DNA of 32,120 bases from Acidimicrobiales bacterium. GTDB taxonomy: Bacteria > Actinomycetota > Acidimicrobiia > Acidimicrobiales > Iamiaceae. The stretch covers positions 1-32,120 of the forward strand of contig JAOBWM010000181.1 of NCBI GenBank assembly GCA_025463365.1. The letters are read 5' to 3'. Below, piece by piece: positions 2,832 to 15,250 of this stretch. The position numbers and the translations under genes are program-made. Position 1 is the stretch's first letter. Every line of letters begins with the position of its first letter. The notes under the pieces were generated by a model. The model saw only the letters and a list, made by a program, of their open reading frames with translations, was not told the DNA's origin and ran no database searches.

Positions 2832-2835
2832 GGGA

Positions 2836-2864
2836 TAGGAGATAGGGCGAGGTTGACTGTCGTA
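2836..2864 (+). repeat. Left terminal inverted repeat of the casposon-like element
   Basis: Begins TAGGAGATAGGG and ends TGTCGTA. It matches the reverse complement of 14371-14399 over 29 ungapped positions with 18 identities. These concentrate in two blocks: nine bases TAGGAGATA plus two G, and a six-base TGTCGT near the inner end. The bipartite pattern suggests two contact sites for an end-binding protein. Four bases (GGGA) separate it from the left target copy. Confidence 0.75.
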
Positions 2865-2922
2865 GGGGGCCGGTATCTTGTGGGGAGCGCTCTGAGCGGA
2901 ACGCCGAAAGGTCGATGCGGTA

Positions 2923-3657
2923 ATGAATCACGAGGACTTCTCAGCAGTGGCCCGAGCGGCATCCAGGACCGTCACCGACCTGGACCACTCGGGTGCGCTC
3001 GCCGCTGCTCAGGAGATGGCCAAGGCCATGGCGTTCGTCGACACGGTGGACCACTCGGGTGCGCTCGCCGCTGCCCAGGAGATGGCCAAGGCCATGGCGT
3101 TCGTCGACACGGTGGACCACTCGGGTGCGCTCGCCGCTGCTCAGGAGATGGCCAAGGCCATGGCGTTCGTCGACACGGTGGACCACTCGGGTGCGCTCGC
3201 CGCTGCTCAGGAGATGACCAAGTCCGCGGCGTTCCTCGACGGCCTGGCTGATTCGGTGATCTGGTCGAGCGCCCTCGCGGGTCTGGCGCAGGAGATCGTC
3301 GAGTCGAACGACCTGGCAGGCGTGGGGCTCGTCGACGGTGACGCAACGGCTCGGTTCCCGGTCGGCGACGATGCAACGTTGGAGGTCGTCGCCGATCCGG
3401 TGCCATCGGACGCTGCTGCGATGGCGGTGCTTCTGGTCGTGCTTTGCGGCCTCACGGCGTGGGCCGTCCTCGATGCTGCGGGCGTCGCAGTCGCGAGTGG
3501 CGCTGAAGACGCTGCTGCCACGATTGGGATGGGACTGTCGCTCGTTCGTGGAGTGACCAACGATCATCCAGCCGTCGGCGGTGTTCTCGATCTGGCCACC
3601 TTGGCAAGCATCGTCTGGTGCGTATTCGTGTGGGTCCAGAAGCAGACCCAAAAGTAG
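2923..3657 (+). CDS. Repeat-containing membrane protein of unknown function (left-end cargo)
   Basis: The 244-residue protein starts MNHEDFSAVARAASRTVTDL and then has four tandem 22-residue units built on DHSGALAAAQEMAKAM, residues about 21-108. The fourth unit diverges in its second half. A linker follows, then two hydrophobic segments: AMAVLLVVLCGLTAWAVLDA around residue 170 and LATLASIVWCVFVWVQ near the C-terminus. Alanine-rich repeats with heptad-like spacing suggest helical packing or oligomerisation, and the C-terminal half suggests membrane anchoring. A GAAAGG sequence upstream may be the ribosome site. It reads inward from the left inverted repeat and converges with the next gene. I do not recognise the family. 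An effector or immunity role is possible only by its location among cargo genes. Confidence 0.75.
   Translation: MNHEDFSAVARAASRTVTDLDHSGALAAAQEMAKAMAFVDTVDHSGALAAAQEMAKAMAFVDTVDHSGALAAAQEMAKAMAFVDTVDHSGALAAAQEMTKSAAFLDGLADSVIWSSALAGLAQEIVESNDLAGVGLVDGDATARFPVGDDATLEVVADPVPSDAAAMAVLLVVLCGLTAWAVLDAAGVAVASGAEDAAATIGMGLSLVRGVTNDHPAVGGVLDLATLASIVWCVFVWVQKQTQK
2983..3246 (+). repeat. Four tandem 66-bp repeats inside the left-end membrane-protein gene
   Basis: Units begin with GACCACTCGGGTGCGCTCGC at 2983, 3049, 3115 and 3181, an exact 66-bp period. The first three are almost base-identical, for example differing as GCTGCTCAG versus GCTGCCCAG. The fourth departs after about 40 bases. The period is a multiple of three and keeps the frame, so copy number can change without breaking the gene. 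Confidence 0.95.
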
Positions 3658-3683
3658 AGCGCTCCCAGAAGCCCCAGCGCCTT

Positions 3684-4652
3684 TCAGAGCTCGCGGACTG
3701 GCTGCGCAGCGACTTCACCCAGAACCCGCTCAGCGTCTTCGACTAGAGCGCAGAGGCTCCTTGCGTAGCGGGCCCATTCGGCCGGATCGTCCCCGTCCTC
3801 CCACCGGACCGCTGACTCGAACTGGTACTCCATGGTGGCAGGGAGTCCGGCAGCGAGAACCTCGGCGATCTCTCGCGCCGCCTTGGACCGATGTGTTTCC
3901 CTGTGGAGGTACGGAAACTCGCTGAGGTCGTCGGGAAGCGGTGTCAGTTCGGTCGAGACCGACTGAAGCCTTGCTGCGATATCGGCGACCCAAGGATCAT
4001 CGCCAGCTACCGCCAGGGGGATCGGCAAACACTGGGTGGCGGCGATCGCCGAGGGACGGATCGCGGCGGAGAGTCCGCCGGGGTCCTCGTACACGTTCAC
4101 GTAGCGGACGACGTCGATCTCGGGTGAAGCGATCTGGTCGAGCCAGACGTCGCCCCAGTTGCGGCAGGGGTCAATCATCGAGCCAGGCAGGATCGCAACG
4201 TCCGGTCGCAGGCGCACACCAAAGAGGTAGAACTGCTCGCCCTTGCCGCCCTGGTCACGCATACGTCGGAGCATGTTGTGGACGGCCGACTCGTAGTTGC
4301 CGATGTGGAGAGCCTTGCTGCTCTGGCGAAGAGCCCATCCGTCGGCGTCCCCCATCATCCGCCGAATGTCGTCGGAAAGCGTTGCCGCGAAGTCAATGGG
4401 GGTCGGCCAGTCCTGGCGGGTGGTGGTGTGGAACCACATGACCTCGGCGGCGAAACCGTCTGACAGCACCGGGTCAGCCGGGTCCCCGGTGAACCGGAGG
4501 GCGTCCCCGAGATCGGCATTGTCGCCGCAGCCCGGACACCCGTGGGCGCTCTCCGCGTAGCGCTCGTACCACGCGAGGTCGACAATGCAGGTGTGACCAC
4601 ACCGATCGTGGCGCATCTGGCGATCCCGGTAGAAGTCGACCGGTCTGTCCAT
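3684..4652 (-). CDS. Uncharacterised zinc-ribbon protein, possibly with an ADP-ribosyltransferase-like fold
   Basis: The 322-residue protein starts at ATG 4652, behind a GAGGAAGG ribosome site. A longer frame upstream lacks such support. Near the N-terminus there is a four-cysteine pattern (C18xxxC22 and C39xxC42), a likely zinc site. The middle has WFHTTTRQDWP, then ALHIGNYESAVHNML, a strand-rich stretch (FYLFGVRLRPDVAIL), and YVNVYEDPGGLSAAIRPSAI. The order of an HT turn, an HIG-type motif and a later strand with an acidic residue recalls ADP-ribosyltransferase-like toxins, but I cannot confirm the fold by eye. It converges with the repeat protein upstream. Base composition seems less GC-rich than the flanking chromosome. 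Treat the function as unknown. Confidence 0.7.
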   Translation of the reverse strand: MDRPVDFYRDRQMRHDRCGHTCIVDLAWYERYAESAHGCPGCGDNADLGDALRFTGDPADPVLSDGFAAEVMWFHTTTRQDWPTPIDFAATLSDDIRRMMGDADGWALRQSSKALHIGNYESAVHNMLRRMRDQGGKGEQFYLFGVRLRPDVAILPGSMIDPCRNWGDVWLDQIASPEIDVVRYVNVYEDPGGLSAAIRPSAIAATQCLPIPLAVAGDDPWVADIAARLQSVSTELTPLPDDLSEFPYLHRETHRSKAAREIAEVLAAGLPATMEYQFESAVRWEDGDDPAEWARYARSLCALVEDAERVLGEVAAQPVREL

Positions 4653-4889
4653 CCCGCACCTTCCTCGATCGTGCCCGTCGAGGGCCGTCAATCGGTGGTG
4701 AGAGTAGCCAGTCGCCAGCGCAGAAGGCCGATGGGCGGAGACCCCGAAGTGTAAGGATCGGACAGTCCCGCCGGGCGTCAACGGCCATCATCCACACCCT
4801 TTGCGTAGGGGTTTCCCACGTTTCCGAGTTTCGCAGACGGGCATTTTCCCAAATCGCTGACCTGCGGCTTTGCAATGGATTGACGCTTG

Positions 4890-4914
4890 GTGCGAATTGC
4901 CGTTCGGTTCGCAC
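4890..4914 (-). terminator. Inverted repeat just past the polB stop, possible weak terminator
   Basis: GTGCGAA (4890-4896) and TTCGCAC (4908-4914) form a perfect 7-bp stem with an 11-base loop, five bases beyond the polB stop on the minus strand. No T run follows, so intrinsic termination is uncertain. The rest of 4653-4889 is unusually AT-rich for this window and shows no convincing gene. It probably holds the promoter of the zinc-ribbon gene. Confidence 0.4.
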
Positions 4915-4918
4915 GCAC

Positions 4919-7900
4919 TTATGGCATCGGTTTCACGGTTTGCAGGTAGCGGTGCAGGGCGGTGCGGTGCGACGGGATCCGGGGCACTGGTCCGAGCTGG
5001 TTGCGGGCGTGTTCGATGGCGTGGTCGGTGAGGGTCCTGCGGGCGTCGGGGTGGGGGCGGGTCCGGCCGCTGAGAGCTCGTTGAATTGTCCGTTGGCCGA
5101 TCCCGGTGGCTCGGGCCGTGGTACGGGTGGGGATGGTTCGCAGGACGGGCACGACGAGGCTGTCCCAGTCCTCGCTGGTCCGGTTCTCGTAGGTGGTGGT
5201 GTGGTCGTCGGTGCTGGTGCCTGTGGCCCGCTGCTCGAGGTCGTTGGCCTCTTTGCCGATGTAGGTGACGGGTTGGATGGCTTGGACGGGTCGTCGGCGC
5301 AGGAGCCCGGTGGTTTCGGGTCGTACGGGTCCGCCGTCGGGGGCGAGGGCCTTTGCTTCGGGGTGTGCGTGGTAGCGCGCGAGCAGGTGCCGGTAGGTGT
5401 GGACGTGAACGGTGCCGGGGCGCAGGGTGCCGTCGGCTTGTTTGGTGCGGATCCGGACGGGTTGTCCGGTGCGGCGGTCGGTCCAGTCGAGGTCGGTCCA
5501 GTTGGCGGGGTCTGGGTCGTAGGGGGCGATCGGTTGGGCACTACTGGGGTCGAGCGGGTCGGGGTGGGCGATGAGAAGGAAGTTGCCGGGTTTGATCTGG
5601 TCGGCGTACGGCAGGCCGCGGTTCATGTTGGCGAACCATCCGAGGGCTTCAGCGCTCGACACTGTGATCCGACTGACCGCGGGCAGGTCGAGCCAACCGG
5701 GCCCGGCTCCGGTCGGGTTGTGGAGGTGCTCCCAGGCGTGATCGATCCAGGCGCTGCCGGGGGCGGGGTTCATGAGATGCCCGAGCCCGTGCTCGGATCG
5801 CTTGATAATGCCGTTTGGGCCGGTGAGTTGGTAGCGCTTGGCGGAGATGGCGTAGCAGTCGATCCGTTGTTGGCGACGGGTGCCGTCCCGGTAGTTCTCG
5901 TCTTCGATGCGCAGGATCGAGCCGGGCACGGTGGCGGGGTTGTAAGGGTTGAGGGCTGCGAATCGTTCGGTGATCGCGCGGACCTGCTTCCAGGTGAGTG
6001 CTCGGACGGCCGGGGTGCCGTTGCGGGTGGTGGCGTTGCCGCCGGGGCATGCGATGGTGCCGCCTCGGGCGGTGGCGACGATGGCCATCGAGTCGGTGTC
6101 GCACATGGCGTAGGTGCCGCCGGCCTCGGTGACTGCGTGTTCGAGCAGGGCGAGCATGAGGCGGGCTGCGCCGGTGGTGGCGGCGGCGAGCGGTGGGAAG
6201 CAGAAGTCCCCGGGGGTTTCGGGGTTGGCGGTGGTGGTCGTGAATGGGGTGCCGTGGCCTGCGTGGACTTCGACGGTGACGGGGTTGGGCTCTCGGCGTC
6301 GGTCGAATTGGGCGAGGGTGCCGTATCCGGAGGCGTTGGCGAGCACTTTCAGGAATCCGCTGAGTCTCTGCCGCTCGCCATTGGGGAGGGTGGGGTCCGC
6401 GGCGGAGCGGTACCGGTGCTCGACGGCCGCAGTGAAGAAGTCTTCGGTGGTCGGGTCGATGGGGATCTGTCCGCAGAGCTGGGTGGGGGTGAGTCCGGCG
6501 GCGTGTCGTTCGGGGTTGAGTCGCCAGGCGGCGATGATCTCGGGGGTGGGTCCTCCGAGGAGGACGGCGGCGAGCACGTCGGCGAGGCAGTACCAGGAGG
6601 GTCGGGTGGATTGGTAGGGGTTGACGCCGATGCCGTGGGAGTCGGCGGCTTCGTCGTACCGGCCCCGGACCGGGAGGATCGCTCCGTTGGGGTTCACTTG
6701 GACAAGGGTGTGTAGCTGCGACCAGAGGTCTCGGGTGAAGCACTGTTCGGCGAGGTCGGGGGGCTGGGCGAGGGCCCGGACCTGGGCGGTCACGTCTTCA
6801 AGTGCCACGTGGTCGGCGCAGATGATCGGCCAGGAGCCCATGAGGGCGTGGCAGGTCATGTACATGGACCGGAAATCGCAGTAGACGACGGGGACCGCGA
6901 GGCGGCGTATCCGGCATTCGGACCGAGCCCCGTAGAACGCTTCCATGCCCCAGCCCATGACTTCGGCGGGGTAGTCGGGCAGGCGCTCGATGGTCGGGGT
7001 GATGCCCATCTTGCGCCAGTACTGCTTGCCGATGGTGGCGGCGGAGAACGTCCGTTCCGGGGGCAGGTCGATGGGGTGGCGGTGGTGCTCGACGTGGGTT
7101 GATCGCAGCAGGGCGGCGGTGGCGGCGACGTCTTCTCGGCAGTAGGTGAGATTGTCGGCCACGATGGTTCCGTGCTCGACGTCTCGTTTGTCGTAGGGGT
7201 CGCCGAATCGGGTCGATGCGGATTCGAGGGTGAGCCCCGGTTCGTCGGTGTGGGCGAAGGCGAGGGTACGGAGGTCGAGGAACTTGCCCCGGTAGTGCTG
7301 CGGTGCGTCTCGGGGTTGCGTGAAGTGGATCAGGGTTCGGTGCCCGTCGATGTTGTTGAGCACGACCCGGGGCCGGTACTTGTTTTCTGCCCCGTCGTGC
7401 TCCCAGAGGCGCAGCGAGATTCCGCCACGGGCCTTGCGGGCAGCCACGGCACCGGTGGCGATTCGGCTCAGGTCGAACGGCAGGTTGTACCCAACGATCA
7501 CGGCCTCGTGCTTGTACCCCCACTTCCAGAGCAGCAGTTCCACGAACTCCGCCCGTGACAGCAACTTGAGCTTGGTCGGCTTGCCCGGAGCGGTGTCGGC
7601 CTTGGCCTTCGCTGTGTAGGCCTCGATGGTGGCGTACCCCGCGGGGTCGCTGTCGGGAAGGTCGTCGGCGTAGAAGATGCCTTCCTCGACGCACACGGTC
7701 CCGGGCGTGGTCCGTCGATCGACGTAGAGCCGCCAGGCCCCGTACAGGAGACGTTGGGTCGCGTCGGTGGTGGCTTCGCAGTCGAAGACCAACGTCCGTT
7801 GCGGTGTGCGGCGGTGCTTCTGGTCGGGGCGCCACCGCGGGATACCACCTTCGGCGGTCGGGTCGGCGGTTGCTTCGACGGCCCAGGCCCGCACCGCTAC

Positions 7901-7936
7901 GGACAGGGGCTCGAAGACGGGATCGGGGTAGCTCAT
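4919..7936 (-). CDS. polB: Family B DNA polymerase with 3'-5' exonuclease and C-terminal HTH (casposon replicase)
   Basis: The 1005-residue protein has exonuclease motifs FDCEATTD (D52, E54), GYNLPFD (N151-D155) and YCRED (Y265, D269). Polymerase motif A is YCDFRSMY (D354), motif B is KVLANASGYG (K530-G539) and motif C is CDTDS (D613, D615). All catalytic acids are present, so it should synthesise and proofread DNA. A 390-residue C-terminal extension follows, ending in a helix-turn-helix around residues 935-970 (TARATGIGQRTIQRALSGR then RPHP) that resembles the Cas1 C-terminus. ATG 7936 is chosen because GAAAGG precedes it and the HNH gene ends 13 bases upstream. A longer frame into the HNH gene is a shadow. 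In casposons such a polymerase is proposed to copy the element during transposition. Confidence 0.93.
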   Translation of the reverse strand: MSYPDPVFEPLSVAVRAWAVEATADPTAEGGIPRWRPDQKHRRTPQRTLVFDCEATTDATQRLLYGAWRLYVDRRTTPGTVCVEEGIFYADDLPDSDPAGYATIEAYTAKAKADTAPGKPTKLKLLSRAEFVELLLWKWGYKHEAVIVGYNLPFDLSRIATGAVAARKARGGISLRLWEHDGAENKYRPRVVLNNIDGHRTLIHFTQPRDAPQHYRGKFLDLRTLAFAHTDEPGLTLESASTRFGDPYDKRDVEHGTIVADNLTYCREDVAATAALLRSTHVEHHRHPIDLPPERTFSAATIGKQYWRKMGITPTIERLPDYPAEVMGWGMEAFYGARSECRIRRLAVPVVYCDFRSMYMTCHALMGSWPIICADHVALEDVTAQVRALAQPPDLAEQCFTRDLWSQLHTLVQVNPNGAILPVRGRYDEAADSHGIGVNPYQSTRPSWYCLADVLAAVLLGGPTPEIIAAWRLNPERHAAGLTPTQLCGQIPIDPTTEDFFTAAVEHRYRSAADPTLPNGERQRLSGFLKVLANASGYGTLAQFDRRREPNPVTVEVHAGHGTPFTTTTANPETPGDFCFPPLAAATTGAARLMLALLEHAVTEAGGTYAMCDTDSMAIVATARGGTIACPGGNATTRNGTPAVRALTWKQVRAITERFAALNPYNPATVPGSILRIEDENYRDGTRRQQRIDCYAISAKRYQLTGPNGIIKRSEHGLGHLMNPAPGSAWIDHAWEHLHNPTGAGPGWLDLPAVSRITVSSAEALGWFANMNRGLPYADQIKPGNFLLIAHPDPLDPSSAQPIAPYDPDPANWTDLDWTDRRTGQPVRIRTKQADGTLRPGTVHVHTYRHLLARYHAHPEAKALAPDGGPVRPETTGLLRRRPVQAIQPVTYIGKEANDLEQRATGTSTDDHTTTYENRTSEDWDSLVVPVLRTIPTRTTARATGIGQRTIQRALSGRTRPHPDARRTLTDHAIEHARNQLGPVPRIPSHRTALHRYLQTVKPMP

Positions 7937-7949
7937 GGTGGGACGCCTT

Positions 7950-8333
7950 TCAGCGGTGTTGTTGCCAGCCGGGGCAGTGGAGGTCGAGAAGGGTTCGTTG
8001 GTGGCCGAGCAGCTCCGCCCAGCCCTGCACGGTGGATGCGATGGTTTGCCAGAAGGGGTGGGTCCAGAACTCGCAGAGCCGCCCGAGGAACGAGGCGACT
8101 CGGGCGAGGCAGTGCTCGACGGTTCCGAGCGGGGTGGCGGTGGTCGACGGTGGCGTGTCGATCCCGGCCGCTCGGAGGTCGTCGTGGGCGTCTTCGTGGC
8201 AGTTGTGGCAGAGCGGAACACCCAGTTCCTTGTCGAGGCGGGCGTGGTCGAGGTCTCGTCCGGACAGGTGGTGGAAGTCCACGGCAGGGTCACCGCAGCA
8301 GAAGCACGGCCCGAGCGACTTGGCGGTGGTCAT
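7950..8333 (-). CDS. HNH-type endonuclease
   Basis: The 127-residue protein carries an N-terminal zinc-binding pair (PCFCCGDPA), then DFHHLSGRDLD with adjacent histidines, and LCHNCHEDAHDD with the second CxxC and a histidine. This is a compact HNH (His-Me finger) nuclease core within residues 10-52. The remaining C-terminus is helical and tryptophan-rich. Its start ATG overlaps the stop of the upstream gene as ATGA, and its stop is 13 bases before polB, so it belongs to the replication operon. HNH nucleases are a common partner of Cas1 and PolB in casposons. Their exact role there is not established, and end-processing or target nicking would be guesses. Confidence 0.88.
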   Translation of the reverse strand: MTTAKSLGPCFCCGDPAVDFHHLSGRDLDHARLDKELGVPLCHNCHEDAHDDLRAAGIDTPPSTTATPLGTVEHCLARVASFLGRLCEFWTHPFWQTIASTVQGWAELLGHQRTLLDLHCPGWQQHR

Positions 8334-8896
8334 TGCACCATCCGGTAGATCGACTCGAAGTCGAAGCTGCCCTGTCGTGCCAGTTCATCGATCACGTCCA
8401 CGTCGGCTTCGAGTTCGATTCCGCCGACCTTCACGCCACGGAACTTTTCGAGGCGAGAGGCGTCCCCGGTGCTCAGGTAGTGGTGGACCGCCGAGTGATA
8501 GCGGCCAATCGAGGACGCGACCCGCGACCCACGCACGTCCACGGGTATGACCTGACCCGCCGAGTACACGTACATGGGCCGGAGCAATCGGTCGCCCGTT
8601 GACGCCCACGTCTTGGTGCCTCGGCGTTCGGTGGCACCCTCGGACCACCAGGCGATCGCGTCGACGCCGATGCCTTCACGGCGCGCCGCATCGGCCAATG
8701 GGATCTGTTCACGTCGAGCCACAGCGAGGGCGTCCAATGCGCGCTCGCGTGCCGCCGCCGCATCCGGTGGAAGCGCGGCGAGGGCGTCGCGGTTGGCGAC
8801 AGTGGACCCGTACTTGCGCTGCTGGGCGTAGGAGGAGAACCCGCGTGCCCGAGCGAGCTCGTTACGTCGGGCCATCGAGTAGCCGCCGCCTCTCAT
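8330..8896 (-). CDS. Uncharacterised mobile-element protein with central HTH-like segment
   Basis: The 188-residue protein has a basic N-terminus (RRNELARARGFSSYAQQRK), which I have often seen in actinobacterial phage and plasmid genes. The middle has a helix-turn-helix-like stretch (IPLADAARREGIGVDAIAWW). A strand-rich part (PMYVYSAGQVIPVDVRGSRV) follows, then SSIGRYHSAVHHYLSTGD and a KFRGVKVGG loop. The start at 8896 is supported by an ATGA overlap with the upstream HTH gene, and its own stop overlaps the HNH start the same way. Its place in a tight four-gene operon with HNH and PolB suggests a part in element replication or DNA binding. No family name can be given safely. Confidence 0.8.
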   Translation of the reverse strand: MRGGGYSMARRNELARARGFSSYAQQRKYGSTVANRDALAALPPDAAAARERALDALAVARREQIPLADAARREGIGVDAIAWWSEGATERRGTKTWASTGDRLLRPMYVYSAGQVIPVDVRGSRVASSIGRYHSAVHHYLSTGDASRLEKFRGVKVGGIELEADVDVIDELARQGSFDFESIYRMVQ

Positions 8897-9111
8897 GGCC
8901 GATCCTCGATATCGGGTTCGCCGAGGGTGGGGCCGGAGTCACCCTTGGGTTGACGCCTTGCGTGAAGCCGGTCGACTTCGTCGGCGTCGAACAGGCGGCC
9001 GAGTGGGGTCTCGACGCATGGCAGGGTTCCGGCGGTGGCGAGTTGTCGGACTCGCTCGGCCGACAATCCGAGGATGCGGGCGGCTTGGGAGGCGGTGAGG
9101 TAGGTCGTCAT
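8893..9111 (-). CDS. Small excisionase-like HTH protein (MerR/HTH_17 type)
   Basis: About 72 residues from ATG 9111 (MTTYLTASQAARILGLS). The sequence AARILGLSAERVRQLATAGTLPCV followed by LGRLFDADEVDRL is the winged HTH of excisionase/AlpA-like proteins. A start seven codons earlier is possible but would lie inside the palindrome 9112-9128. It is the first gene of the leftward replication operon and overlaps the next gene by ATGA. The palindrome against its start codon suggests that it, or the divergent regulator, controls the operon by binding there. In an element of this type it could also help architecture at the ends. Confidence 0.82.
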   Translation of the reverse strand: MTTYLTASQAARILGLSAERVRQLATAGTLPCVETPLGRLFDADEVDRLHARRQPKGDSGPTLGEPDIEDRP

Positions 9112-9128
9112 GGCTGCACTGTGCAGCC
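9112..9128. promoter_or_regulatory. Perfect 17-bp palindrome abutting the HTH-gene start, candidate operator
   Basis: GGCTGCAC and GTGCAGCC are perfect 8-bp arms around a single central base, directly adjoining ATG 9111. The position would block translation initiation or transcript passage when bound, or form a hairpin over the start region. The binding protein is unknown; the small HTH protein or the MerR-like protein are natural candidates. Confidence 0.65.
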
Positions 9129-9153
9129 TCAAGCCCCAACACGAAAGACCCAG

Positions 9154-9179
9154 GTCGATGTAAGATCGGAAACATCGAC
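9154..9179. promoter_or_regulatory. Interrupted palindrome with embedded -10 element, candidate operator/promoter of the cas1 operon
   Basis: GTCGATGT (9154-9161) and ACATCGAC (9172-9179) are perfect 8-bp arms separated by 10 bases, which places them one to two helical turns apart. A TANNNT-type -10 box, TAAGAT (9161-9166), overlaps the left arm and spacer. The GTG start of the next gene begins at 9180, immediately after the right arm, with no ribosome site. This suggests a leaderless transcript whose promoter is covered by a dimeric repressor. Confidence 0.65.
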
Positions 9180-9983
9180 GTGACCAGGGAATGGACCCGA
9201 ACTCAACTCATCGACGAAGCCGAGAAGCGCGACTTTGCCTTGTCAAATAGGCAGATCACCGACTGGGTCGAGAAGGGTCTCCTCGACAAGCCCCGCCGCC
9301 GGGGCACCGGTCGAGGCTCCAAGCTCGCTGTATGGTCGGACAACCAAGTCGAGATGCTGTTCTCGATCCTCGACAAGCACCGGACCGTCAAGAAGGCACC
9401 CAGGCTCGCCGACCTGCCCGTAGGGGCGTGGTTGGGCTGGGGCGAGGACTACGTCTCGCTCGTGCAGGTGAGACGGGCCATGCGTACCTGGGCGGGAGCG
9501 AACTCCGACTCTCTCGTCGGCCGGATCCGCCAGAGCGTCGACCTGCTCCTAAAGGACTTCGACGCCAAGCCCGCGGTTCGCCGAGAACTCCGCGAGACCC
9601 TCACCGATCTGCTCGTCGGGATCTCCGATGAGGGTCAACTCCTCGCCCGGCGAGACGCCATTGCCGCCGCCCTGCGCAAGGCCCAAGGGGCAACCCGATC
9701 CGACCTCGTTCTCCCAAAGGTTGACGCCTACCTGACAGTCGTCGAGGCTCGCATCGCCGGGACGACGCCATTCCGCAACGGCACCGATGCGAGCGTCTTC
9801 CCCGACGCCACCTTCCGCCGTGCCTGGACCCTGCACAACATCAGCAACGCCGAATACGCGCGCAAGTCAGGTCTCCCGTCCGCCGCCGTGATCCAAGAGT
9901 TGTTCGACGCGGCATGCCAGCGCTTCGCCGCCCTGCTCGGGTACAGCCTGATCTCCAACCACCCCGACTGGACCAACCCGTGA
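9180..9983 (+). CDS. MerR-like HTH protein upstream of cas1
   Basis: The 267-residue protein has an N-terminal MerR-like winged HTH. Evidence is TRTQLIDEAEKRDFALSNRQ, then DWVEKGLLDKP and a basic RRRGTGRGSK wing. The rest is helical without a family I can name (LLKDFDAKPAVRRELRETL; NAEYARKSGLPSAAVIQEL). GTG 9180 is taken as start because the only nearby ATG is out of frame and the -10 box sits about 15 bases upstream, consistent with leaderless initiation. Its stop overlaps the cas1 start as GTGA, so the two proteins are coupled. A role as regulator of the element, or as an accessory DNA-binding partner of the integrase, fits the context. Confidence 0.8.
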   Translation: MTREWTRTQLIDEAEKRDFALSNRQITDWVEKGLLDKPRRRGTGRGSKLAVWSDNQVEMLFSILDKHRTVKKAPRLADLPVGAWLGWGEDYVSLVQVRRAMRTWAGANSDSLVGRIRQSVDLLLKDFDAKPAVRRELRETLTDLLVGISDEGQLLARRDAIAAALRKAQGATRSDLVLPKVDAYLTVVEARIAGTTPFRNGTDASVFPDATFRRAWTLHNISNAEYARKSGLPSAAVIQELFDAACQRFAALLGYSLISNHPDWTNP

Positions 9984-11521
9984 CCACGCTCCTCGCCGAA
10001 ACGTTCACCGACGGCCCAGTCCGCAACGGAGTCCGAGTGGTCGACGGATACGGCATCCGCCTCGCTGTCGAACGTGGGCACCTCGTCATCGCCGACGGCA
10101 CCGGGCGAGACCGCCGGTCGACCCGTTACCCAAAGGTCGGCCACGGACTACGACGCCTCGTCATCATCGGCCACACCGGAACCATCAGCCTTGAAGCCCT
10201 CCGCTGGCTCGACCGAGTCGGGGTACCCGTCGTCAACATCGACAACGACGGTCGAGAACTCGCCCGCACCAGCCGAGCCGGACTCGACGACGCCCGCCTC
10301 CGCCGCATCCAAGCCCTCGCAGCCGGGACCCCCACCGGCCTCGGAATCGTGGTCGATCTGCTCGACGCCAAGCTGACCGGGCAAGCCACACTCGCCGCCG
10401 ACCGCCTCGACGCCCCAGACATCGCTGAGCGCATCCACGCCCTGCGAGACCGGCTCGCCAACGTCGACACCCTCGAAGAAGCCCGAGACTGCGAAGCCCA
10501 AGGCGCCTACGCCTACTTCTCCGCCTGGCCCGACGCCGTCGCCATCCGATGGGCCAACCGAGACCGCGAGCGCGTACCCGAGCGCTGGCACCGCTTCGAC
10601 GCCCGACGATCCCCGCTCACGGCCGGATCACCCGTGAAGGCCGCGGATCCAGTCAACGCATTACTCAACTACCTGTACGCCCTGGCCGAGACCGAATGCC
10701 GACTCGCCTGCCAAATCCTCGGCCTCGACGCCGGTCTCGGATTCCTGCACTCCGACACCAAGGGCCGAGACTCGCTCGCCCTCGATCTCATCGAACCCGT
10801 CCGACCCCACGTCGATACCTACCTGCTCGACCTCCTCGACGGACACGTCTTCCGCAAAGCCGACTTCCACGAATCCGACGATGGCCACTGCCGCCTACTC
10901 CCGCCTCTCACGCACCGCCTAGCCGACACCCTTTCGCAGTGGCAAGGAGTCGTCGCTCCGTGGGCCGAATCCGTCGCTCACGTCCTCGCCGATGCCAGTA
11001 CCCGGCCCATCCGCAAACCCACCCCCCTCACCTCGGCCACTCGTCGAGCCGCCGCCATCGGGACATCGAGCGGACGTCGAAAGATCGCTCAGACGCGCCG
11101 CCCCGCCACCACGCCGAACGTCCCCGTGCTGTCGGGCTGTGAGGAGTGCGGGCGACCATTGACGAATCCGGACCGCCGGTATTGCCCCGACTGCTGGCCT
11201 ACACGGCGAGCGCAAGGGCAACGCGCCGCCGTCATTGCGGCTGCCGCCGCTTCGACCGACGCAGCCAAGCAAGCCAGCAAGGGATCGGCGATTTCCAAAG
11301 CGAAGCTGCAAGCTGTTGACCGCGCTGCCGTCGAGCTTGGCTGGCAGCCGGACGAATGGCAACACCTCATCCGGCCCTGCGTCGGCGCCCTCACCCTTGC
11401 CCAGATCCAATCCGCCACCGGCTACGGGATCTCCCACGCCTCCCGCATCAAGCGAGGCGTGCAAAGACCGCACCCCCGCCACTGGGCCGCCCTGGCCGCT
11501 GCGCTCACAGCACCAGGCTGA
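9980..11521 (+). CDS. cas1: Cas1 family integrase (casposase) with C-terminal zinc finger and HTH
   Basis: The 513-residue protein is much longer than CRISPR Cas1 proteins of about 300-340 residues. The N-terminal beta domain runs over about residues 1-95 (TGTISLEALRWLDRVGVPVV). The helical catalytic domain has CEAQGAYAYFSAW (E172), NALLNYLYALAETE, GFLHSDT (H257) and SLALDLIEPVRP (E272), so the three metal ligands are present. Added at the C-terminus are a zinc finger (C387, C390, C402, C405) and an HTH (about 470-500, ATGYGISHASRIKRGVQRPHP). C-terminal HTH extensions are known in casposases. GTG 9980 is chosen for its GTGA overlap with the gene upstream. Longer frame upstream is out-of-frame shadow. 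No cas2 neighbours it. It should integrate the element ends into DNA. Confidence 0.93.
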   Translation: MTTLLAETFTDGPVRNGVRVVDGYGIRLAVERGHLVIADGTGRDRRSTRYPKVGHGLRRLVIIGHTGTISLEALRWLDRVGVPVVNIDNDGRELARTSRAGLDDARLRRIQALAAGTPTGLGIVVDLLDAKLTGQATLAADRLDAPDIAERIHALRDRLANVDTLEEARDCEAQGAYAYFSAWPDAVAIRWANRDRERVPERWHRFDARRSPLTAGSPVKAADPVNALLNYLYALAETECRLACQILGLDAGLGFLHSDTKGRDSLALDLIEPVRPHVDTYLLDLLDGHVFRKADFHESDDGHCRLLPPLTHRLADTLSQWQGVVAPWAESVAHVLADASTRPIRKPTPLTSATRRAAAIGTSSGRRKIAQTRRPATTPNVPVLSGCEECGRPLTNPDRRYCPDCWPTRRAQGQRAAVIAAAAASTDAAKQASKGSAISKAKLQAVDRAAVELGWQPDEWQHLIRPCVGALTLAQIQSATGYGISHASRIKRGVQRPHPRHWAALAAALTAPG

Positions 11522-11593
11522 AGGGGCGGTGACCTGCTAGCGAAGGTCCAGAAGAGGAGCCATACTGCGATCGGGCGACTGAGGAGGGTTGTT

Positions 11594-12013
11594 GTGGTTG
11601 ATCCGGTGAGTGTTGGATTTGTGGTGTCAGCGTTGATCGCGGAGGCGGAGACGAAGGCGATCACGGGCACGGTGGATGCTGGTGTTGAGGTAGTGAGGCG
11701 CGGGGTGGAGCGCATCAAGTCGTGGTTCGTTAGGAACAACGACGGGGAGGGCACGGCAGCGTTGACCGGCCTGGTGATGGGCCCTGATAGTGGCCTGTTG
11801 CGTTCAGCGCTTGGTGCCCGGTTGGACGGGCTGGCCCAGGACCCCGAGGTGCGAGCTTTCCTGGATGAGCTGGTGCGTGATGCTGGGGCCGCGGGAGTTG
11901 ATGTGGCGGTGGCCACTCAGGTCGCGGTTGGCGATTACAACAACCAGATCCAAGACAGCCCGGGGGCGTCGATCACGGTCAACGACCGGGCTCCTCGCCC
12001 GCCAACGGGTTGA
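11594..12013 (+). CDS. Bell/HeLo-like small helical protein with C-terminal amyloid-type motif (predicted effector)
   Basis: The 139-residue protein begins MVDPVSVGFVVSALIAEAET, a hydrophobic N-terminal helix. Amphipathic helices follow (VEVVRRGVERIKSWF; EVRAFLDELVRDAG). The C-terminus carries GDYNNQIQDSPGASITV at residues 113-129. A short helical domain followed by such a motif matches bacterial Bell-domain proteins, predicted membrane-active cell-death effectors that are switched on when an NLR carrying the same motif templates amyloid assembly. The matching motif is in the next gene. GTG 11594 follows GGAGGG by about six bases. Its stop overlaps the next gene's TTG start, so expression is coupled. 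The effector role is an inference from family resemblance. Confidence 0.78.
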   Translation: MVDPVSVGFVVSALIAEAETKAITGTVDAGVEVVRRGVERIKSWFVRNNDGEGTAALTGLVMGPDSGLLRSALGARLDGLAQDPEVRAFLDELVRDAGAAGVDVAVATQVAVGDYNNQIQDSPGASITVNDRAPRPPTG

Positions 12014-14400
12014 CGTACGGATCAGACGGCGGCCTGACAGTGGATCCAACGATGCCCTCCTCGGGTGTGCAGTGGGCCGAGGGCGACGGAAACGTCCAGA
12101 TCGCATATTCGCCTGGGGCACAGGTGGAGATCACCTACGGCGGTGGCACGCCACGGTTGGTGCCGTTGCGGCCAGCGGCGGTGCCTGTGGGGGCGGGGGT
12201 GTCACCGGCACGGTTGTTGGGGGCTCGTTCTCAGGTGGTGCCCTACACAGCTCGGCTGGGGTTGCTCGATGACTTGAAGGGCTGGCTCACCGGCCCGGGT
12301 GCGTTTCTGGTTCGGTTGATCGGGGGCCGTGGCGGATCGGGAAAGACCCGTGTCGCCGTTGAGTTGGCGACGTGGTCTCAGGTGCTCGAACCCAAGTGGC
12401 TCGCCGGGTTGCTGGTCGCGGACACCGATGGGGGAGCGACCGATGAGTTGATCCAGGCGCCAGGACCGCGGTTGGTGGTGATCGACTACGCCGAGACCCG
12501 CCTTTCTCAGCTCAGCGCGTTGTTGCCCCGCCTGAGCAGCCATGCGACCGACCAGCATCCGGTGCGCGTGTTGTTGTTGGTGCGGGACCGGCCCCACGCC
12601 GGAAGGGATCTGCGGGCCCTGCTCGGTGGTGACACCGAGGAACTCGACTCGATCGTCGACGACGTCGACCCGACGGACCTCTCCGACCCGACCCTTGATG
12701 AGCGACGGGGCCTGTTCACCGCGGCGGCGCGAGCATTCGTGACCCGTGACGGCACCGGCCTGGCAGTCCCTGACCCGCCCGACGACCTCCACCAGACCGT
12801 CTACGACCGGCCGCTCATGGTCGCCATCGCCGCCTACCTGGCAGTCCACAACCCCACCGGTGACCTGCCCACCACTCGTGACGGGCTCCTCGAAGAACTG
12901 CTCGGCCACGAAGACCGACACTGGAAAGCCACCGCCGGCCACCTCAACATGGGCCCGACCGTGCGCCGCCGCGTTGTCGCAATCGCCACCCTCGCTGGGG
13001 CCAATTCTGAGGTCGAAGCCATCGCCGTGCTCCGCCTCATCCCCGACCTCGCCACGGTGGACTCGCAACAGGTAGGCGAAATCGCTCGATGGGCTCACAC
13101 CCTCTACCCGGGGCCTGCGTATTGGAACCCGCTCGAACCCGACCTCCTCGGGGAGCATCTCGTGGCCTCCTGCTGGAGCGACCACTCCGACGTGATCGCC
13201 GCGACCCTCACCGACCGGCCCACCGCCTCGCTGCGCCAACCCCTCGAAGTTCTAGCCCGGGCCGCCACCGGTCGCCCTCGGTTCGCGACTGTCTTGAGTG
13301 ACGTCATCACCGCTCGTCTACTGGGCCTCTGTCGCGCTGCGATCGCACAAGCGGCCACCCGAACCGGCTACACCGACTATTTCACGGACACCACCATCGC
13401 CGCCGCTCTCGAGCGAACCATCCGGGCCATTCCGCCTCACGCCGACGTCATGCCCGAAGTGCTCGACCAGTTCCCCCCACGAACTGACCTCGTCCTCACT
13501 CCACTACGACTCACCCTCGCCGCCCAACTTGCTCACACGCTACGAGCCACCAACCCAGACCACCCACACCTCCCAATCACCCTCAACAACCTGTCGGTCT
13601 TCTTGGATGCGGTTGGGCGCCGGGAGGAGGCGCTCGCCGCCGCCGAGGAGGCCGTGGCCATCTACCGGGTCTTGGTCGAGGTCAACCCGGCCGCCTACAC
13701 CCCCGCCCTCGCCCCGTCGCTCAACAACCTGTCCAATCGACTGAATACGGCTGGGCGTCGGGAAGAGGCGCTCGTCGCCAGCGAGGAGGCGGTGGGCGTC
13801 TACCGGGTGCTGGCCGAGGCCAACCCGGCCGCCTACACCCCCGCCCTGGCCATGTCGCTCAACAACCTGTCCAATCATCTGGATACGGGTGGGCGTCGGG
13901 AAGAGGCGCTCGCCGCCATCGAGGAGGCGGTGGCCGTCTACCGGGTGCTGGTCGAGGCCAACCCGGCCGCCTACACCCCCGACCTGGCAGTGTCGCTCAA
14001 CAACCGGTCCAATCACCTGGATACGGCTGGGCGTCGTGCAGAGGCGCTCGCCGCCAGCGAGGAGGCCGTGACCATCCGTCGGGTGCTGGTCGAGGCCAAC
14101 CCGGCCGCCTACACCCCCGACCTGGCCTCATCGCTCAACAACCTGTCCAACCGACTGGATACGGCTGGGCGTCGGGAAGAGGCGCTCGCCGCCAGCGAGG
14201 AGGCCGTGGCCATCTACCGGGTCCTGGTCGAGGCCAACCCGGCCGCCTACACCCCCGCCCTGGCCTCATCGCTCAACAACCTGGCCAAGCATCTCGACGG
14301 TCTCGGTCGTAACGACGAAGCAGGGATTCTTCGCAACGAGTCCGACGGCATCTTCAAGTCTCCAATCACTCACGACACACCGGGAACCCATATCTCCTAA
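12010..14400 (+). CDS. STAND/NLR-type NTPase with N-terminal amyloid-type motif and TPR sensor
   Basis: 796 residues from TTG 12010, which overlaps the previous stop as TTGA; ATG 12052 is an alternative start. The N-terminal motif GDGNVQIAYSPGAQVEI (about 26-42) matches the Bell protein's C-terminus. A linker typical of actinobacterial STAND proteins leads to Walker A (GGRGGSGKTRVA, about 105-116) and Walker B (PRLVVIDYAET). Winged-helix and helical parts follow, then six 46-residue TPR-like repeats from about residue 525 to the end. This is the NLR plan of signalling motif, NTPase switch and repeat sensor. It likely senses an invader or host target through the TPRs and triggers the Bell protein. 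The TAA stop lies inside the right inverted repeat. Confidence 0.85.
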   Translation: MTYGSDGGLTVDPTMPSSGVQWAEGDGNVQIAYSPGAQVEITYGGGTPRLVPLRPAAVPVGAGVSPARLLGARSQVVPYTARLGLLDDLKGWLTGPGAFLVRLIGGRGGSGKTRVAVELATWSQVLEPKWLAGLLVADTDGGATDELIQAPGPRLVVIDYAETRLSQLSALLPRLSSHATDQHPVRVLLLVRDRPHAGRDLRALLGGDTEELDSIVDDVDPTDLSDPTLDERRGLFTAAARAFVTRDGTGLAVPDPPDDLHQTVYDRPLMVAIAAYLAVHNPTGDLPTTRDGLLEELLGHEDRHWKATAGHLNMGPTVRRRVVAIATLAGANSEVEAIAVLRLIPDLATVDSQQVGEIARWAHTLYPGPAYWNPLEPDLLGEHLVASCWSDHSDVIAATLTDRPTASLRQPLEVLARAATGRPRFATVLSDVITARLLGLCRAAIAQAATRTGYTDYFTDTTIAAALERTIRAIPPHADVMPEVLDQFPPRTDLVLTPLRLTLAAQLAHTLRATNPDHPHLPITLNNLSVFLDAVGRREEALAAAEEAVAIYRVLVEVNPAAYTPALAPSLNNLSNRLNTAGRREEALVASEEAVGVYRVLAEANPAAYTPALAMSLNNLSNHLDTGGRREEALAAIEEAVAVYRVLVEANPAAYTPDLAVSLNNRSNHLDTAGRRAEALAASEEAVTIRRVLVEANPAAYTPDLASSLNNLSNRLDTAGRREEALAASEEAVAIYRVLVEANPAAYTPALASSLNNLAKHLDGLGRNDEAGILRNESDGIFKSPITHDTPGTHIS
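13583..14320 (+). repeat. Six 138-bp tandem TPR-coding repeats
   Basis: CTCAACAACC recurs at about 13583, 13721, 13859, 13997, 14135 and 14273, an exact 138-bp (46-codon) period. Units share SLNNLSN, GRREEALAA, EEAV and EANPAAYTP. Several units are nearly base-identical, which indicates recent duplication or conversion. The last unit degenerates. The 46-residue spacing is longer than the 34 of canonical TPRs and is like that of kinesin-light-chain-type TPRs in STAND proteins. Confidence 0.93.
14371..14399 (-). repeat. Right terminal inverted repeat of the casposon-like element
   Basis: The reverse complement begins TAGGAGATATGGG and ends TGTCGTG, matching the left end at 18 of 29 ungapped positions in two blocks. 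Two bases (AC) separate it from the right target copy. The outer block provides the TAA stop of the NLR gene on the plus strand and a TAG stop for the truncated cpaF 5' fragment on the minus strand. Confidence 0.75.
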
Positions 14401-14401
14401 C

Positions 14402-14417
14402 CCAGGAGCGGATCGAG
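14402..14417. repeat. Right copy of 16-bp target-site duplication
   Basis: CCAGGAGCGGATCGAG, identical to 2816-2831. Outside it the chromosome continues as CGCCCCGAGC, the cpaF 5' fragment. Outside the left copy the flank is ATCGG, so the ancestral site can be written as one uninterrupted cpaF sequence with a single copy. Confidence 0.92.
14402..14417 (-). other. Integration target site within cpaF codons LDPLL
   Basis: The target is a protein-coding sequence rather than a tRNA gene, which is where several known casposons insert. The codons CTC GAT CCG CTC CTG fall at a conserved turn before the first CpaF strand. Conservation of this stretch could give the element a recurrent target, but that is speculation. 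Confidence 0.5.
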
Positions 14418-14587
14418 CGCCCCGAGCCCCACGACGCGCGAGGCCACGCCGACGACGGCGCGAGCCACCCCGTCCGCGCCCAGCAACGGATCGGCCCGCC
14501 GCACGAGCGCGGCGATCTGCCCCTGGCCGGGCACCGTGTTCGACGGGTCCGAGAGGAGCCGGGCGTGGACCTCGTCCTCGAGCGCGC

Positions 14588-15250
14588 TCACCGGATCTGC
14601 TCCACCGCGGCGGCGAACGATCGAGGGAGCCGGGAGGCCAGGAGACCGGCATCGACTGCCCGAGCCACCGCCGGATCCACGGCGAGCTCGGCGATGGCCC
14701 GCACGCCGACCACCTGCTCCACATCGCCGCGGCCGAGCACCCGAGCCGGCTCGCGGACCACCACCACCGCATCGGGCTGGACCGGGAGGTGGCGGGCCCG
14801 GAACAAGCCCAGCTGGCACGGCCGGATGACGAGCAGGGATCGATCGGCCGCCCCGGCCAGCGCCGCGCCGACGGTCACCCCGGCCGGGGCCACGTCGAGA
14901 CGACCGGCGTCGACGATCACCTCGACCGGCTCCCGGGCCAGGACTGAGGCGAGCACCTCCGCGCGTGTCGGGTCGATCGGCCCGCGGCCCCGGTGGAGCA
15001 CGGCCAGACCCGGGGATACCTCGGTCCTCAGCCGGGCCAGCGCGTCCGGGGGGACCGCCGACCCCGCCGAGGACCACTCGGCGACGCCAGGCCCGACCGG
15101 CTCGGCCATCCCCAGCGCGTGGGGCTGGTCTCCTGCGAGATCGACGAGCAGCACCCCCGACGCCGCGGTCCGCGCCCGACCGACCGCCAGCGCCGCCGCC
15201 ACGACCGTGGTCCCGACGCCGCCCTTGACGGACCAACAGGTGATGAACAC
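14588..15250 (-). CDS. cpaE: CpaE-like / Ssd-like MinD-family ATPase of the Tad locus
   Basis: The 220-residue protein begins FITCWSVKGGVGTTVVAAALA, a deviant Walker A of the ParA/MinD family. GVLLVDLAGDQPHALG follows, and VEVIVDAGRLDVAP is the Walker B-like strand. It lacks a separate receiver domain, as in short actinobacterial CpaE/septum-site proteins. In Tad systems such ATPases help localise or organise the pilus machine. GTG 15250 follows GGGGAGG at good spacing. Its stop overlaps the cpaF start. It is the first visible gene of the Tad operon, upstream of the insertion, so its own expression should be unaffected. Confidence 0.85.
   Translation of the reverse strand: MFITCWSVKGGVGTTVVAAALAVGRARTAASGVLLVDLAGDQPHALGMAEPVGPGVAEWSSAGSAVPPDALARLRTEVSPGLAVLHRGRGPIDPTRAEVLASVLAREPVEVIVDAGRLDVAPAGVTVGAALAGAADRSLLVIRPCQLGLFRARHLPVQPDAVVVVREPARVLGRGDVEQVVGVRAIAELAVDPAVARAVDAGLLASRLPRSFAAAVEQIR

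Follow-up and report, generated by a model that had tools for sequence, protein, structure and literature searches.

The 32,120-nucleotide stretch of DNA analysed here (contig JAOBWM010000181.1 of an Acidimicrobiales bacterium; hereafter, the window) contains a bacterial casposon with Cas1 as its recombinase, a family B DNA polymerase (PolB), terminal inverted repeats (TIRs) and a target site duplication (TSD). The structural models indicate that the C-termini of PolB and Cas1 are the same kind of four-helix, XRE/lambda-repressor-like helix-turn-helix (HTH) domain, and the comparison with related elements indicates that these are two HTHs of a common type with a long-separate descent. Across the relatives, the HTH of PolB covaries with the TIR, but that of Cas1 does not. 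We tentatively favour, at somewhat less than an even chance, a division of labour in which the PolB HTH would read the ends of the element and the Cas1 HTH would read the target, a scheme whose binding steps and roles we infer from sequence comparison.

The HTH modules of PolB and Cas1

The PolB gene (4919-7936, minus strand) encodes a protein of 1005 amino acids (aa), counted from MSYP, that contains the exonuclease and polymerase motifs FDCEAT, NLPFD, DFRSMY, YAMCDTDS and KRY. The window PolB did not match any Pfam polymerase family, and a PolB profile built from 7 relatives matched exclusively B-family polymerases in the PDB. Its C-terminal XRE-type HTH module is encoded at 5009-5173 (minus strand). 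The Cas1 casposase gene (9914-11521, plus strand) is a 535-aa open reading frame (ORF) whose likely start is the GTG at 9977; residues 42-330 match PF01867 (E = 3.6e-42), and no other Cas1 match was found in the genome. The protein also has a zinc ribbon (CEECGRPLTNPDRRYCPDC; 11138-11194, plus strand), whose four Cys are kept in the relatives and which was modelled with a predicted local distance difference test score (pLDDT) of about 92, and it ends in an XRE-type HTH module (11348-11509, plus strand). Both modules are supported by profiles, AlphaFold helices and PDB matches, those of the Cas1 module being to XRE domains.

A first-pass annotation of this DNA had noticed a similar letter pattern at the end of both proteins. 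The segments ARATGIGQRTIQRALSGRTRPHPDARRTL of PolB and SATGYGISHASRIKRGVQRPHPRHW of Cas1 are located as it claimed, beginning at residue 941 counted from MSYP and at residue 500 of the 535-aa ORF (479 with the GTG at 9977), respectively, and ATG-x-G, R-x-x-x-G and RPHP are all found in both C-termini. The shared pattern is real, but its spacing and its G and P positions are general features of XRE domains (G-x11-G-x3-P), and RPHP is rare in PolBs, being present in 2 of 21 PolB modules (RPH or RPY in 4), while PHP is found in 27 of 38 Cas1 modules. The resemblance begins upstream of the ATG-x-G stretch, in a helix of the form F/W-xxx-I/V-xP-x-L-xx-I/V. The Cas1 relatives end with the zinc ribbon followed by F/Y-xxx-I/V-xPxL-xx-V-x(6)-ATGLS-xx-Y-A/C-xx-IRxG-xx-PHPRHW-xxL, and the PolB relatives end with W/F-xxx-I/V-xPVL-xx-IP-x(6)-SGLSRR-T/A-L-x(3)-RxG. 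The recognition helix starts with Gly in both window modules (ATGIG in PolB, ATGYG in Cas1) and mostly with Ser in the relatives, a rare change that the two proteins of this one element have in common.

In Pfam, each C-terminus matches only HTH_31 or HTH_3, always under the cut-off. The E-values for HTH_31 (Cro/XRE type) were 0.0017 for PolB and 0.0016 for Cas1, and both scores (19.1 bits each) are below the curated cut-off of 27. When the Cas1 and PolB modules were compared profile against profile, they aligned over 52 columns free of gaps, with a probability of 98.3% and an E-value of 1.5e-14 for this single comparison. Searches of 41 whole genomes served as background for the module scores. 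With a profile of 19 Cas1 modules, the C-terminus of the window PolB was the best non-Cas1 match (26.5 bits, E = 2.9e-5, columns 2-44), a position that it shared with one ordinary XRE regulator, in genome G020; the remaining XRE proteins scored about 22 bits, and their matches were confined to the HTH core. With a profile of 9 PolB modules, the best non-PolB match was the C-terminus of the window Cas1 (20.5 bits, columns 2-53), generic matches lying barely under it at 20.2 and 20.0 bits. Since generic XRE matches score alike, the Cas1 and PolB modules are related but not clearly separate from XRE domains at large, and the tie with the regulator in G020 precludes claiming an exclusive relationship of the two apart from all XRE domains.

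The AlphaFold2 models of the PolB and Cas1 modules, built with 13 and 15 sequences, respectively, show four helices each, with equal spacing: model residues 45-59, 63-70, 74-82 and 89-107 in PolB (pLDDT 88-97 for most) and 77-88, 93-100, 104-111 and 119-130 in Cas1 (pLDDT 85-96 for most). The PDB matches of both were mostly XRE-type and other lambda-repressor-like domains, such as Aca11 (Z = 7.3, 56 residues, root-mean-square deviation (rmsd) 2.3) and the XRE domain 5woq_C (Z = 6.7, 74 residues, rmsd 5.7) for PolB, and 2ef8_A as the best match for Cas1 (Z = 5.3, 60 residues, rmsd 3.5). As the Z scores are middling and the Foldseek E-values are above 0.1, these matches back the fold class but no specific family. 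Unrelated folds of the two C-termini, which the first-pass annotation had named as the outcome that would refute its claim, are ruled against by the profile-profile match and by the models, both of which point to the same kind of HTH.

The two modules share with the XRE/lambda-repressor-like HTHs (Pfam HTH_31, HTH_3) the four-helix layout, the spacing of G, G and P, and the PDB matches, but they differ from them in scoring below the Pfam cut-offs, in having an N-terminal helix with a conserved L/I-x-P-x-L, and in being fused to catalytic proteins instead of being regulators. One explanation would be that PolB and Cas1 independently took generic DNA-holding HTHs from the XRE pool, for non-specific affinity, dimerisation or autoregulation, and that the covariation of the PolB HTH with the TIR reflects co-inherited neighbouring DNA. 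We consider this unlikely: the Pfam matches are indeed weak and generic, and an ordinary regulator does tie with PolB in the Cas1-profile search, but the position, the length and the upstream helix of the modules are kept across several phyla, and the recognition helices have class-specific signatures (Y-A/C-xx-I-R-x-G in Cas1, R-x-T/A-I/L in PolB).

Histories of the two modules and covariation with the TIR

The relatives were collected by PolB searches of actinobacterial genomes and by scanning 84,980 species for Cas1, which gave about 40 related elements (designated by locus numbers) from Acidimicrobiia, other Actinomycetota, Acidobacteriota, Chloroflexota and others, including L084, the element of a Nitrosomonas metagenome-assembled genome. 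Duplicate loci were removed (L060 = L022, L075 = L047, L076 = L045, L200 = L057, L205 = L062). Viral contigs contained no Cas1 relative, and plasmids contained no PolB relative and only Cas1 of the CRISPR (clustered regularly interspaced short palindromic repeats) type. A match restricted to the C-terminus in G049 (L012) was discarded, as it lies in a conjugation-type protein region and is not a relative of the HTH.

In a tree of 64 modules, based on 52 columns only, the Cas1 and PolB modules formed near-clean halves (support 87/100), the exceptions being one PolB (L070) and the XRE outgroups, which were placed elsewhere. The two HTHs of the window each grouped, with low support, with their own protein class. 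The Cas1 and PolB HTHs of the same element were no closer than those of different elements (permutation P = 0.26), and no covariation of Cas1-HTH and PolB-HTH distances was seen across elements, so that neither the pair permutation nor the distance tests revealed matched evolution of both HTHs inside one element. Moreover, either module can be absent. The Cas1 HTH is lacking, also from the frames immediately downstream, in L043, L044 and L084, whose PolB does have one, and L023 and L047 show the reverse, a Cas1 HTH without a PolB HTH.

The unusual Gly and the RPHP that both window modules have would be accounted for if one module had recently been copied from the other within the window lineage, yielding an identical ATG-x-G and RPHP. 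We regard such copying as highly improbable, since the two window modules share only 31% identity over 42 residues, each of them is closer to some other element's partner, and each groups with its own protein class in the tree, albeit with low support.

Some relatives have further variants of these C-termini. The PolB C-terminus of L023, L045, L047, L053 and L073 carries a zinc ribbon resembling that of Cas1, alone in L023 and L047 and otherwise after the HTH. Tandem duplicated HTH modules were found in L051 (two on Cas1, 568-2451) and in L084 (two on PolB, 682-1209). In addition, L022 has at 180-671 a remnant of a second Cas1 C-terminus, which continues into another open frame.

The TIRs and TSDs were mapped in further elements, giving a discovery set (n = 9) and a hold-out set (n = 10) from the classes of L063 and L077. 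The distances between PolB HTHs correlated with those between TIRs in the discovery set (r = 0.53, P = 0.0001), in the hold-out set (r = 0.81, P = 0.0003) and in the pooled data (r = 0.63, P = 0.0001, n = 19), and the pooled correlation persisted in a partial test on the PolB core (r = 0.53, P = 0.0001, n = 19). No such correlation was detected for the Cas1 HTH (discovery r = -0.17; hold-out r = 0.18, P = 0.23; pooled r = -0.12, P = 0.84, n = 19). The same is seen in individual pairs. L056 and L207 have TIRs alike at 17/17 positions, with 78% identity between their PolB HTHs and 43% between their Cas1 HTHs. Conversely, the TIRs of the 8 pairs whose Cas1 HTHs are at least 70% identical are alike at only 7-12 of 17 positions, the mean over all pairs being 10.8; among them, L061, L072, L204 and L064 have Cas1 HTHs 73-75% identical in the pairs compared, and TIRs alike at 7-12/17.

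These results bear on the proposal of the first-pass annotation that both modules are the same end-recognition HTH acting on the TIR, which would bring replicase and integrase together there. Although the two have the same fold and are reciprocal best or tied-best profile matches, and although PolB and Cas1 must both act at ends that open with a conserved GGG contactable by both HTHs, the Cas1 HTH does not vary with the TIR, near-identical Cas1 HTHs are found on elements with unlike TIRs, and the modules cluster by protein, with neither similarity within an element nor covariation, and with either of them missing from some elements. The proposal of one common module was not supported, and we judge it quite unlikely. 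As for the end-recognition role, the half that concerns PolB fits the covariation of its HTH with the TIR, but the half that concerns Cas1 was not supported.

Target sites and a possible division of labour

Of about 22 two-ended elements, 15 have a TSD whose last bases, immediately next to the TIR, are TTGAC; in two more, these bases are TTGAG and TTGTC. Among 13 non-redundant TTGAC targets (11 two-ended and 2 with a single mapped end), 11 have the -10 box pattern TAnnnT 16-18 bp downstream, compared with an average of 0.43 in shuffles (P = 0.0002), and none of the 13 has it at five control spacing ranges. These motifs indicate that the insertion site of most relatives is the -35 hexamer of a sigma-70-type promoter; the elements listed for such insertion are L041, L047, L056, L061, L062, L063, L067, L072, L083, L196, L198, L201, L204, L206, L207, L208 and L209. 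One promoter, which in L061 precedes a valyl-tRNA synthetase-like gene, has been hit repeatedly in different genomes, and its flank is shared by L072, L204 and L207. Insertion at a TTGAC promoter target restores the -35 box. Among open-licence papers, we have found no description of promoter -35 boxes as a casposon target.

Three loci have flanks of a particular kind. L066 contains at 6572-6614 two casposon ends back to back flanking one TTTGAC target, that is, a tandem insertion at one site. The left flank of L063 (before 368) is GTCGACAATTTTTCCCGAA, the reverse complement of the inner portion of an L056-type TIR, which places this element next to what is left of another casposon. Unlike the casposons that target promoters, the element of L025 (1669-1758) lies 16 bp downstream from a tRNA-Met gene.

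According to the division of labour that we tentatively favour, the PolB HTH would bind the terminal repeats of its element and thereby recruit the polymerase to them, and the Cas1 HTH would act on the side of the reaction that stays constant. The simplest form of such a role would be target recognition, the target in most relatives being the -35 box of a sigma-70 promoter. The Cas1 HTH is assigned to the constant side because its recognition helix is kept between elements with unlike ends. The M. mazei casposase without its HTH loses integration, which also argues against generic DNA-holding HTHs, and Hickman et al. suggest that this HTH reads the sequence beside the target (PMC6977970), a proposal with which a target-side role of the Cas1 HTH agrees. 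The more specific version, in which the PolB HTH would specify the ends and the Cas1 HTH the -35 target, and insertion would recreate the -35 box and spare the promoter, we hold to be on the doubtful side. If it is true, ends and target could evolve separately through the change of one module, and the aim of the casposase at promoter -35 boxes would parallel leader-side recognition in CRISPR spacer acquisition.

Several points weigh against this division of labour. Given the PolB core, the partial test of the PolB HTH does not reach significance in the hold-out set (P = 0.24), where the two are almost collinear (r = 0.98), and the link to the TIR may belong to PolB as a whole or be simple linkage. 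Linkage is a real alternative because the HTH is encoded at the 3' end of polB, near one of the TIRs; that both TIRs have to match makes it weaker without eliminating it. The window element and L041 have TIRs alike at 16/17 positions with PolB HTHs only 22% identical, and L064 and L068 have TIRs alike at 15/17 with PolB HTHs only 18% identical. The Mantel tests leave some phylogenetic non-independence, some divergent PolB modules were aligned by hand, and the split hypothesis was derived from the data themselves. A family 1 casposase without HTH is still target-specific (PMC6614799), the isolated HTH of the M. mazei casposase showed no DNA binding (PMC6977970), and the window element is located within the coding gene cpaF, not at a promoter. 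The lack of DNA binding by the isolated HTH would also fit generic DNA-holding HTHs, as would the XRE outgroups inside the HTH tree and the correlation of the TIR with the PolB core, which in the hold-out set equals that with the PolB HTH in strength; the pooled partial test, significant given the PolB core, argues the other way. The recognition helix of the window Cas1, GYGISHASRIKRG, is atypical, and its coincidence with a non-promoter target is, as a single case, only suggestive.

The sharing of an HTH by Cas1 and PolB is already known. In archaeal family 2 casposons, Krupovic et al. described similar C-terminal HTHs on both proteins in 2014 (PMC4046053), a statement repeated in a 2023 review (PMC9939771); we have found no explanation in the literature for the HTH on PolB. 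Compared by description, the family 2 casposons of Euryarchaeota (PMC4046053) resemble the window element in the HTH on Cas1, the similar one on PolB, the HNH gene, the further HTH genes, the TIRs and the TSD. However, the window element has a bacterial host, a Cas1 with an added zinc ribbon, and an insertion in cpaF, whereas most family 2 members insert in the 3' end of a tRNA gene. The bacterial family 3 casposons (NitAL212-C1, AceAut-C1, StrAlb-C1 and HenMar-C1) share with it the bacterial host and a PolB without protein-primed signs, and the Cas1 of AceAut-C1 has, like the window Cas1, a zinc-binding domain and an HTH. For family 3, these two domains are mentioned on some Cas1s and no HTH is mentioned on PolB (PMC4046053), whereas a PolB HTH is present in most relatives studied here; the target of family 3 is described as 'intergenic' (PMC6614799), as opposed to the -35 box of promoters in most of our relatives. 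The M. mazei casposase (Hickman et al., 2020; PMC6977970) has a C-terminal HTH like the window Cas1, needed for its integration in vitro, but it comes from an archaeon, the HTH was not ordered in its crystal, and no claim on PolB was made. The window element and its relatives show that the PolB HTH also occurs in bacteria, and what is added here is a bacterial clade, the covariation of the PolB HTH with the TIR, and the -35 target. With bacterial elements in which the TIR, the target and both HTHs vary separately, the roles of the Cas1 HTH and the PolB HTH become directly testable.

Boundaries and genes of the window casposon

The casposon occupies 2832-14403 (11.57 kb) within a cpaF/tadA gene, as delimited by the TIR and TSD at both ends. 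The left TIR (GGGATAGGAGATAGGG; 2832-2847, plus strand) and the right TIR (GGGTTAGGAGATATGG; 14388-14403, minus strand) are 16 bp long and match at 14 of 16 positions. An equal sequence of 14-16 bp terminates casposons of other genomes and phyla (L041, L196, L197 and L198), and the only two matches with at most 2 mismatches in the whole 4.3-Mb genome are the two element ends. This TIR is short by comparison with the published casposon range of 25-602 nucleotides; scanning the flanks for ungapped inverted repeats yielded no convincing candidate at the 29 bp that had been assumed for the ends.

The TSD (AGGAGCGGATCGAG) is found at 2818-2831 and at 14404-14417 (both plus strand). It measures 14 to 16 bp because two C residues are common to the TSD and the TIR: the outermost two bases of the right TIR (CC on the plus strand) equal the ambiguous CC at 2816-2817 that precedes the left copy, so that the direct repeat flanking the element extends over 2816-2831 and 14402-14417. 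Removal of the insert and one TSD copy reconstructs a single open CpaF/TadA frame, the target being the coding gene cpaF and not a tRNA gene. The interrupted gene, which encodes a type IV/Tad pilus ATPase, lies at 1812-2831 and 14404-14600 (minus strand), and the genes around it resemble the remainder of a tad cluster.

The element has the usual casposon gene set, with the PolB, HNH-like, 188-aa and HTH_17 genes on the minus strand and the MerR-like and Cas1 genes on the plus strand. The HNH-like protein (7950-8333, minus strand) matches DUF968 under the cut-off (E = 4e-4). It is followed by the 188-aa protein (8330-8896, minus strand), which is kept next to PolB in related casposons, and by a small protein of the HTH_17/MerR type (8893-9132, minus strand). 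The 267-aa protein with a MerR-like N-terminus (9180-9983, plus strand) is kept next to Cas1 in related casposons. No recombinase besides Cas1 was found among the element ORFs scanned against Pfam, and the family scans of these ORFs named no Cas2, no dedicated search for Cas2 or arrays having been made.

The cargo includes a 796-aa nSTAND-like NTPase with TPR repeats (12010-14400, plus strand), whose stop codon lies within the right TIR and whose start is overlapped by a 139-aa ORF (11594-12013, plus strand). This NTPase had no match in PADLOC and is possibly a defence or signalling gene. At the other end, the cargo consists of a 365-aa protein without family match (3684-4781, minus strand) and a 244-aa protein (2923-3657, plus strand) with four near-identical 22-residue repeats of the DHSGALAAAQEMAKAMAFVDTV type.

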